NCBI GenBank assembly: GCA_018304165.1
Contig: JAGVWS010000031.1
Span: 1-38,767, forward strand
Source of the DNA: Candidatus Pacearchaeota archaeon
GTDB lineage: Archaea; Nanobdellota; Nanobdellia; Pacearchaeales; GW2011-AR1
DNA: 38,767 nt
Direction of reading: 5' to 3'
Below the pieces are notes generated by a model, which saw nothing but the letters and a program-made list of their open reading frames with translations, had not been told where the DNA came from and ran no database searches. Below, piece by piece: positions 15,580 through 34,667 of this stretch. Position numbers and translations under genes: made by a program. How positions within the stretch are numbered: the stretch's first letter is position 1; each line of letters opens with the position of its first letter.

Positions 15580-15649
15580 TATATTAAAATTGTTAAATTT
15601 TTACTTATCAAAAACTTTAGTTTTTGATTAATTATAGAGAAAAACAACA

Positions 15650-16024: not shown

Positions 16025-16203
16025 AATTTAATGACTGAAAATCAGTTTATAATGATTTATATCCTCAATTAAGAATTGAGTCAGACTGGCGAGATAAGGT
16101 ATAAAACGAGAGACCAAAATATTTCCTCGTTGCTTTTTGTTCTCTCGAATATAACAACTGACAATTTGAGGAATTATTTAAGTCAGTTGCTATAAAAAGA
16201 AAA

Positions 16204-17543: not shown

Positions 17544-17878
17544 ATTATCTTTATCAATTTTGTTGCTTTAAATAGTTTATGAATTTGATTTTGTTTGACG
17601 AGAAGAGGTTATTTCTGGATAAGACAACATGATTCTTCATAAAAACATTGGTGATTAGACAATAATTGCACCAATAAGTTACCTCAGAACCAAGAATAAT
17701 TAACTGATAACCTGTAAAACACCAACGTAAGCTGCATGTAAGTGTCTGGCATATTAATTGATATTAAGGTGGTTATTTATAATGAGCATAAAGGCTATTG
17801 ATGATAGTTATATCAAAAATTAGTGCGGAATTTAGCTAATCACCAAACATTTAATAATCTCTTCTTCATGCTTTTTCC

Positions 17879-18765: not shown

Positions 18766-19255
18766 GAATTTTTTAAGAAAGTTATGTCCGTTCCTTCTGT
18801 TTCACGTTAGTTATTAGCTTGATTGACATTATTGGTTCCAGTATTTCTGATATATAGACAACTGCGTTACTTATATGACATGCTTTTTGCAGTTCTCTAT
18901 CTGTCTAACTGCATCCTTCTTGTAACCTAACCTGTGCAGTTATCCATAATTCTAATTTAGCAATAGATTTATGAAAATCAATTATTAATTTTAATCCGCT
19001 TAGTGAACATGAGTAAACTTTTGCCAGCATTTGTCAGCAATTACCTAGATGAACCTGCTATAAAAATTATATCTAACTATAGCCAAGGACTTTAGTATTT
19101 CCCCATTTTGTCATTGGCTATTTAGGGAAAGACTTGTGTCTTTCACTATAATGATAGAATTATTCCGATAACTATATTGCTTTTATAATATAATTCATCG
19201 GAGATACTTAAGCCATAGATAACTCTAAATACAATGTTCTATCCTTTTCATTATT

Positions 19256-20888: not shown

Positions 20889-21378
20889 GATTTAAAGAAG
20901 TGTTTTATGTTTATAAAATTACTCTTTTTAGTAGAGGTATTGAAGCAGCGAGGATAGTTGTGGTTTCTTGGCTATATGCTTATTGAGTATCTCTGATGGA
21001 TAATTATTATATCAACATAAAAACAATATAGCTATTGTAAATTCTGATGATTAGAATAATATTTTCTCATAATCTCTGTGATAGATAATTCTAAAAACTT
21101 ATCATAATTAAAAGAATTATCTATATTAAGAATAATTCCATTATTAATTGGATACTATGTTTATAGCAGGTTCAACCGAGGGTAATTGCTAACAAAAGTT
21201 TAATTGTGCTCACTAAGCGGATTCAAATTATTGGTTGATTCTTTAAATCTTTCTGCTAAATTTGGACTGTATCGGAGAGACTGTTATCACAACTATCTTT
21301 ATATATCAGGCAGATTTTTCATGCCGATATTAAACAGGTTAATCGTAAATATCCCGCTAAACAGAGGTTTAAAGTACC

Positions 21379-24641: not shown

Positions 24642-24724
24642 TTTATGCTATTGGTTTTTATAGCTTTATTATATTATAATAATTATCGTAAATTCTGATG
24701 ATTAGAGTAATATTTATTCAGAAT

Positions 24725-24828
24725 CTTCAAGAATGTTAATTCTTGAGGCCTCAAGAAGGTTACTTCTTGACGGACCGTCAAAATCTCTGATTTTGAGGCC
24801 TCGAAACATCAAGAACGTGAGTTCTTGA
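24725..24828. repeat. array of four hairpins with TCAA...TTGA 8-bp stems
   Basis: TCAAGAAT-GTTA-ATTCTTGA (24727-24746), TCAAGAAG-GTTA-CTTCTTGA (24751-24770), TCAAAATC-TCT-GATTTTGA (24778-24796), TCAAGAAC-GTGA-GTTCTTGA (24809-24828). Confidence 0.9.
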
Positions 24829-25020
24829 GTGTGTTCACTATAACACAAAACAATCAGGAATTATGCAGTCAACAATGCCACCATTACTCATTAAATAAGC
24901 GTCAACATTGAACATCCACTTAACTTACTTACTTCAGAAGATTGCTTCATCAACTACCAGCTCACCTCTGCTCATAACAAATTTAACAATTTATAGTTTC
25001 AAACAGTGAGTATATGTAAA

Positions 25021-28748: not shown

Positions 28749-28825
28749 GCATATTTTATAAATTATTAATTAATCAAAAGAGGCAGAATGATTAAACTAA
28801 ATCAAAGGAAGTTGTTAGCAAGATG

Positions 28826-28872
28826 TCAAGATGTTTACATCTTGAACACACTCAAGAACAAAAAGTTCTTGA
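28826..28872. repeat. two hairpins of the TCAA...TTGA family
   Basis: TCAAGATG-TTTA-CATCTTGA (28826-28845) and TCAAGAAC-AAAAA-GTTCTTGA (28852-28872). Confidence 0.85.
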
Positions 28873-28894
28873 TGAACCTTTGGTGTCTTACACT

Positions 28895-33888: not shown

Positions 33889-34667
33889 GTCTTGAAAATA
33901 AATTTAGGGCTGGTTTGAAATGGATTTTGGACAATAAAAAGAAAACGCTGGCTTCCTTAGTTTTAGCGGGGCTTGCGGGCATTACCATTTCTAAAGATAA
34001 TGTTCATCTTGGTTCTACAACATTGAATAATGCTGGTGGTAATCATTATGTTTGGGGTTTGTTTCCAAGTGTTAAGATTATTGGCGATACTAATACTAGT
34101 GTCAGGACTTATGGTTTGGTAGCAATAAATACCCTTAACGGTAAGATTACTGGCGATATGAGCACTTACGGATTAATTGGAGGGAATAATTCTACAGGGG
34201 ATAATTCTTCCATCACTGGCGATATGGGCGCTTACGGATTACTTGTGGGGATTAATTCTACAGGCAATAATTCTTCCATCACTGGAGATATGGGCGCTTA
34301 CGGATTAATTGGAGGGGAGAATTCTACAGGCAATAATTCTTCCATCACTGGAGATATGGGCGCTTACGGATTACTTGTGGGGATTAATTCTACAGGCAAT
34401 AATTCTTCCATTACTGGCGATATGAGCGCTTACGGATTGTTTACAGGGAATAATTCTGCAGGCAATAATTCTTCCATTACTGGCGATATGAGCGCTTACG
34501 GATTGTTTACAGGGAATAATTCTGCAGGCGATAATTCTCCCATCACTGGCGATATTACTTCAAGAGGGATTTCTGCTATTACTCCTGTAGATTGGGGTTT
34601 TCTTTCTAACACCCAACTAAATCTTGAGAATTATATAGTTAAGAAAGAGGAGGCGAGTTCAAAATGA
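33885..34667 (+). CDS. putative exported tandem-repeat protein
   Basis: N-term basic stretch then LASLVLAGLAGITIS; six 22-aa repeats ITGDM(G/S)xYGLxxGxNS(T/A)G(N/D)NSS; ATGA overlap with the TrmB gene. Confidence 0.75.
   Translation: MSLENKFRAGLKWILDNKKKTLASLVLAGLAGITISKDNVHLGSTTLNNAGGNHYVWGLFPSVKIIGDTNTSVRTYGLVAINTLNGKITGDMSTYGLIGGNNSTGDNSSITGDMGAYGLLVGINSTGNNSSITGDMGAYGLIGGENSTGNNSSITGDMGAYGLLVGINSTGNNSSITGDMSAYGLFTGNNSAGNNSSITGDMSAYGLFTGNNSAGDNSPITGDITSRGISAITPVDWGFLSNTQLNLENYIVKKEEASSK
34146..34541 (+). repeat. six 66-nt coding tandem repeats
   Basis: In-register units starting 34146, 34212, 34278, 34344, 34410, 34476; units 2 and 4 nearly identical, units 5 and 6 nearly identical. Confidence 0.95.

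Follow-up and report, generated by a model that had tools for sequence, protein, structure and literature searches.

A twin-hairpin repeat in a Pacearchaeota archaeon is probably a non-autonomous mobile DNA element

A hairpin array downstream of a Rad50-like gene

We analysed a 38,767-nucleotide stretch of DNA from a Candidatus Pacearchaeota archaeon (the whole of which we call the window), whose genes, among them those for FttA, the archaeal CCA-adding enzyme and the proteasome, fit an archaeon with a small genome. A 472 bp gap between a Rad50-like gene (end, 24641) and a proteasome subunit gene (start, 25114), both on the + strand, holds four perfect palindromes at 24727–24746, 24751–24770, 24778–24796 and 24809–24828; their place just after rad50 and their stems are as an earlier sequence-only reading of this DNA had given them. 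Folded as RNA, the array region reaches −45.5 kcal/mol against a mean of −27.1 for shuffled sequences (z −4.9; 0/200 shuffles equal). The flanks consist of remnants of other hairpins and repeats, and the four hairpins are part of a larger array. Adjoining them on the left, at 24684–24724 (+), is a single hairpin from a decayed double-hairpin host repeat, F-C, with 89% identity to 21039–21075 of the window and to L038 11687–11721; beyond the array, the right half of this host was not recognisable by BLAST and no junction-spanning match was found.

The hairpin motif is strongly over-represented. The window contains 8 matches to the pattern TCAAGAANGTNANTTCTTGA (0.38 expected), and TCAAGAAN{4,9}TTCTTGA has 19 exact matches in the genome (866,627 bp, 79% complete; stretches totalling 632 of 867 kb were used, and covariance model (CM) searches covered the whole genome) compared with 1 for a reversed control. 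The same exact pattern is rare in 36 relatives (0–3 matches), so this sequence version is peculiar to the present genome. The sequence-only reading had made its case depend on such palindromes being commoner than in shuffled DNA, and they are: among 128 perfect hairpins of ≥8 bp in 392 kb, TCAA lies in the stem of 33, whereas each of three Markov shuffles gave 2. Perfect TCRR hairpins number 72 in 632 kb, against 2–11 for other starting sets.

Repeats of other kinds are also present. Of the 392 kb sample, about 14 kb falls in structured-repeat islands; further dispersed structured repeats lie at 17639–17878, 20970–21290 and 18853–18929 of the window and at L041 18078–18405, and a repeat family with TTGGTGATTAG..CTAATCACCAA ends has another repeat inside it at L041. 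At 34146–34555 of the window, tandem repeats of about 60–70 bp lie within a protein-coding region (a GDMxAYG-like stretch is repeated).

Grammar of the repeat unit

The repeating entity is a twin hairpin of 50–57 bp and not the single hairpin. Most of the hairpin copies listed occur in pairs, and an alignment of 20 such pairs was the basis of a first covariance model (R1). A grammar common to five genera can be written [YG][TCARRR..YYYTGA]g[CR]|[CN]n[TCARRR..YYYTGA][N'G]: on its inner side each stem has one bulged base, beyond which it carries on for two more pairs. The two hairpins stand directly side by side, and no unpaired bases separate or flank them. In 48 strictly parsed units with six-base spacers, the left closing pair is TG/CA (28), CG/CG (9), CA/TG (5), CT/AG (2) or unpaired (4), and the right one is CT/AG (21), CA/TG (20), CC/GG (2), TC/GA (1), TG/CA (1) or unpaired (3). 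The closing pairs past the bulge thus covary across genera (TG/CA and CG/CG; CA/TG, CT/AG and CC/GG), and the bulges keep fixed positions across genera. No description of a fixed bulge with covarying closing pairs was found in a limited search of the literature on comparable repeats.

Read against this grammar, hairpins 2 and 3 of the array form one unit at 24749–24798 (unstranded; a span that comes from this reading and not from a separate CM match), which on the + strand is [CC TCAAGAAG gtta CTTCTTGA c GG] A [CC g TCAAAATC tct GATTTTGA GG], with CC/GG closing pairs, one-base bulges and one additional central base. Hairpin 1 (24727–24746, unstranded; TCAAGAAT-GTTA-ATTCTTGA) is a further unit member that is closed imperfectly and falls within a match to the model R2 at 24725–24772. 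Hairpin 4 has a CA/TG closing pair and a bulged G, and is matched by both R1 and R2 at 24807–24845 (−); on the + strand, 24807–24831 reads [CA-hairpin-g-TG], and the partner hairpin to its right is degenerate. The GGCC and CGGACCG sequences that the earlier reading saw between the hairpins are there, but they are not spacers; they are structural, being the closing pairs and bulges.

Two other places in the window had been said to carry the same stem style. The one at 28824–28874 (+) is a complete twin-hairpin unit, TG[TCAAGATG..CATCTTGA]aCA|CAc[TCAAGAAC..GTTCTTGA]TG (R2 E 2.6e-13), whereas the one at 15608–15627 (unstranded; TCAAAAAC-TTTA-GTTTTTGA, perfect stem) is a lone hairpin that matches neither R1 nor R2 and is possibly half a unit.

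Pairing is kept while sequence changes. In a 24-unit alignment with an 18-pair structure, 98.8% of cells are paired and 72 are doubly changed (0/500 shuffles equal). Across 139 distinct CM matches—a set in which some units are counted on both strands and in which the alignment leans to the model—98.7% of 2446 pair cells are paired, with 554 double changes compared with 187 in shuffles (0/500). Because the model was built on perfect stems, badly decayed copies would be missed. Selection on structure, or a structure-dependent process, is thereby strongly supported, whereas a palindromic binding site, the other suggestion of the sequence-only reading, is unlikely to be the chief cause, given that stems vary freely in sequence as long as pairing is kept.

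A neutral origin would also account for double changes that pass through neither G-U nor mismatch intermediates: hairpin-templated repair (quasipalindrome correction), together with slippage, would make and keep palindromes without any dedicated mobility, and would account for the half-hairpins left in arrays. Such repair would, however, erase one-base bulges, yet the bulges are fixed across genera, so that a mere drive to perfect the palindromes does not account for the form. It also leaves the clean empty sites, shared ends and A|Y target described below unexplained. We regard a purely neutral origin as improbable; hairpin-templated repair may act in addition to mobility.

Folded DNA or RNA

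Structured RNAs normally pass through and retain G-U pairs. In the 139 CM matches only 16 of 2446 pair cells are G-U, and the four pairs that alternate most between A-T and G-C comprise 305 A-T, 240 G-C and 1 G-U. Given the near-absence of G-U alongside strong covariation, the constraint seems to bear on palindromes in DNA; judged by the general behaviour of RNA families, this points to pairing in folded DNA and not in RNA. Where genes are in tandem, 16 units have the same orientation as the genes and 16 the opposite; 19 lie in convergent gaps and 10 in divergent gaps, and 5 of 72 overlap predicted open reading frames. No family among the Rfam covariance models matched.

The strong predicted fold and the strong covariation would both be expected if the units were structured RNA (small RNAs, 3′-UTR or terminator elements) in which RNA pairing is selected and dispersal is secondary. 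The G-U counts, the even split of orientations, the lack of an Rfam match and the nesting of units in other repeats all weigh against this explanation, which we hold to be unlikely; an RNA gene or terminator was rejected on the first three of these grounds, and the small transcript or 3′ end that had been proposed for the array is accordingly not supported. Scarce G-U pairs accompanied by strong covariation form a useful marker that separates DNA-level hairpins from RNA genes, and repeats of this kind could otherwise be annotated as non-coding RNAs.

Insertion sites

Compared with their empty counterparts, filled sites show clean insertion of the unit, usually following an A and for the most part within other hairpin repeats. 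A double-hairpin host repeat of about 90 bp (DH) has an intact, empty copy at 16102–16194 (+) of the window, and its central junction is filled by a unit at other sites of the genome: DH is whole at at least 7 places and split by a unit at ten or so, almost always at the centre. The orientation of the unit within DH is constant, so the filled copies could descend from few events.

DH has several features of its own. Besides the window copy, copies lie at L042 3169–3256, L055 11106–11019 and L036 18701–18615, and in several copies the loops look complementary (ACCAT/ATGGT, CCTC/GAGG). Full-length relatives occur in G015 (84%) and G039 (75%). The window copy lies about 10 bp past the 3′ end of a tRNA gene (16293–16204, minus strand), which was found by an Rfam match and missed by ARAGORN; it is 90 bp long and perhaps contains an intron. 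DH had no match among plasmid records.

Other hosts with empty copies in this genome are CTTAATA|AAGCAG, CCTTATA|GGCAAGG and GTTAGCAAGA|AACC. The unit at 28824–28874 interrupts ...GTTAGCAAGA|AACCTTTGG... where a signal-peptide-peptidase-like gene (Pfam SPP) begins, and empty counterparts lie at L054 9302–9349 and L077 8977–8940. Hosts with empty copies in other genomes include TTTATCTA|TCTGGAGA and CCACAC|CTTTTAAGG, among others. Empty and filled sites are thus available for at least 4 host repeat families of this genome and for G038, G061 and G062, and no target duplication was found at any of the sites compared.

Units also enter one another. In G038, one unit lies at locus L118, and at L103 a second unit sits in the middle of the same one; the outer hairpin's closing pair has changed too, and the change is compensated. 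This unit inside a unit shows how arrays can grow. Both loci (L118 9450–9600 and L103 12680–12910) place the units between tandem duplicates of the 3′ portion of a tRNA gene.

An A precedes the unit in 45 of 55 cases, and a T or C follows it in 45 of 55. For 16 of 30 units both flanking sequences recur elsewhere, compared with 1–6 of 30 intergenic controls, and flanks are far more structured than random sites (mean minimum free energy, −12.4 versus −6.3). Insertion specifically into hairpin loops or junctions, which is convincing by eye, was rejected because tests gave control levels (4/24 and 14/57 at first; 13/68, or 19%, versus 17% with wider flanks). Insertion points fell within a predicted stem in 65% of cases compared with 44% of displaced controls, a difference that was seen after the loop test had failed and is hence weaker. 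In G346, several near-identical unit copies lie inside a longer repeat of about 190 bp, and it may be this composite rather than the bare unit that spread there; some copies, in DH as in G346, may have spread with their host repeat rather than alone.

Integron attC sites, at which gene cassettes are exchanged, are folded single strands with extrahelical bases. The units likewise have extrahelical bases and a structure more conserved than their sequence, and a MazF-like toxin gene and a likely antitoxin gene of G069 lie between two units that share one orientation (L139 4701–5544). The core boxes of attC are RYYYAAC and GTTRRRY; they are absent from the 24-unit consensus, which ends YGTCA...TGANG. 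Furthermore, most units lie inside small repeats and not between cassettes, and the host is inserted into rather than exchanged. We therefore consider it very improbable that the units are attC-like recombination sites.

Distribution

The unit occupies about 37 non-overlapping sites in this genome (60 matches on both strands at E ≤ 0.001). A search with R1 found pairs in 24 of 113 genomes, this one counted, with 13–26 copies in several other genera. Class-wide, 54 of 381 genomes carry the unit at E ≤ 1e-4, in a patchy distribution over 27 families; in a wider sample, which may be mostly the same class, 72 of 379 genomes were positive at E ≤ 1e-5 and the positives listed all belong to this class. 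In these two scans copy numbers were counted to a maximum of 15. The array itself had no match in collections of phage and plasmid records. We conclude that the unit is a real, widespread and structure-defined DNA repeat and probably a mobile one.

Candidate enzymes

The search turned up neither an autonomous copy nor a transposase gene to match; since the genomes are incomplete drafts, a missing gene is weak evidence. Genes for Y1 occur in this genome, and the unit is present in 12 of the 34 genomes that have Y1 (p 0.018). Y1 had no match in 4 of the 8 unit-richest genomes (G020, G061, G062 and G041; incomplete drafts). No units were found beside Y1, Y2 or TnpB genes, the search for TCRR hairpins at Y1 or TnpB genes returned a single one in 94 kb, and the transposon ends at L056–L058, compared by eye, differ from unit hairpins. 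IS110 showed no association with the unit. Y1, TnpB and IS110 were accordingly set aside as the obvious mover, since their association with the unit is weak or absent and they share no hairpins with it.

An IS91-type Y2 transposase (Y2_Tnp, PF04986), sought in 113 relatives, is present in seven genomes, six of which carry the unit (p 3e-4, with three families tested and the kinship of genomes ignored). None was found in this genome, and no units lie at the ends of Y2 genes, which weighs against Y2 as the mover in spite of the co-occurrence. A target of A|T without duplication is a trait of Helitron- and IS91-like elements with an HUH Y2 enzyme, and the units have A|T in 23 of 55 cases and A|C in 13 of 55. 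Our best guess, at less than even odds, is an enzyme of the single-strand (HUH) type.

The units might instead be terminal-only remnants of IS200/IS605-type (Y1/TnpB) transposons, that is, strict PATEs or REPINs mobilised by Y1, an explanation that overlaps the one we prefer. Two near-terminal hairpins, the lack of target duplication, a size near that of the 52 bp PATE, and the presence of Y1 genes here with their weak association with units are all consistent with it, but the four unit-rich genomes without a Y1 match and the solitary TCRR hairpin at Y1/TnpB genes are not, and on balance we think it rather unlikely.

A model for the array

What has been observed is a two-hairpin grammar with covariation, dispersed copies, insertion of units within repeats and within one another, empty sites that show no target duplication, and a preference for A|Y. 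In our preferred reading, the array is probably made up of copies of a mobile, non-autonomous piece of DNA of 50–57 bp, which comprises two inverted, abutting hairpins and has no gene of its own. Each hairpin is of about 10 bp and has an extrahelical base that lies two pairs in from the foot, and there are essentially no unpaired ends. Recognition would be of the folded DNA, probably as a single strand, such as arises on the lagging strand, and a transposase or recombinase acting in trans would move the element mostly into hairpin repeats, other units included. Repeated nested insertion would then build multi-hairpin arrays such as that at 24727–24828. The unit is most likely non-autonomous selfish DNA recognised as single-stranded hairpins.

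Relation to known repeats

Biologists have known of short palindromic mobile repeats for decades. The earlier reading, which had not noticed mobility, nesting in other repeats or a spread over many genomes, recognised no named archaeal element in the array, and that judgement held in the searches carried out, although comparable kinds have been described, namely PATE and SMR-A in Haloquadratum (PMC3119063). SMR-A of Haloquadratum walsbyi is about 110 bp long and gene-free, has terminal inverted repeats and tens of copies, makes no target duplication and strongly prefers the palindromes of other mobile repeats, and its mobilisation has been called enigmatic (PMC3119063). The unit shares with it shortness, the lack of genes and of target duplication, tens of copies and insertion within repeat palindromes. 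Compared by description, the unit has 50–57 bp and two complete bulged hairpins, whereas SMR-A (HqIRS42/43/55) has about 110 bp; unlike SMR-A, units insert into each other and are spread over many families of another archaeal class.

PATEs have near-terminal palindromes that resemble those of IS605-type transposons, no target duplication and terminal-only forms of 52 bp (PMC3119063). The host repeats DH and F-C look PATE-like, and the unit resembles PATEs in its palindromes near both ends and its lack of a gene and of target duplication, but differs in having no IS605-type link, with only the one TCRR hairpin noted above near Y1/TnpB genes. REPINs (BIMEs) consist of two inverted small palindromes in intergenic DNA, with compensatory changes and a possible 'clover' fold, and are paired with RAYT (Y1) genes (PMC3116915). 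Here, too, an inverted, intergenic palindrome pair with compensatory changes and a possible clover of two hairpins is the mobile unit; however, it has no RAYT neighbour, half of the richest genomes gave no Y1 match, and its A|Y target lies mostly inside hairpin repeats. By analogy the unit would work like REPINs and PATEs, but we file it as neither because a Y1/IS605 partner with matching palindromes was not found. The parts of the literature on organellar double-hairpin elements and Volvox palindromic repeats that we consulted describe sequences of about 50 nt with short loops that insert into one another to form composites (PMC2670323). The unit is like them in size, loops and mutual insertion, but it belongs to another compartment and has another sequence, and its fixed bulge and closing-pair grammar is not described in those parts. 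Finally, it differs from a classical MITE in having no target site duplication at its empty and filled sites.

Tentatively, the twin hairpin could be the non-autonomous form of an undescribed class of archaeal transposable DNA in which a folded single strand is read by its stem and extrahelical base and inserted at A|Y inside hairpins, by an enzyme that has not yet been linked to such repeats and is possibly of the IS91-type Y2 kind. Because the unit has precise ends, a bulge grammar that is fixed, and empty sites, and occurs in hundreds of copies across the class, both the recognition rule and the enzyme become testable.
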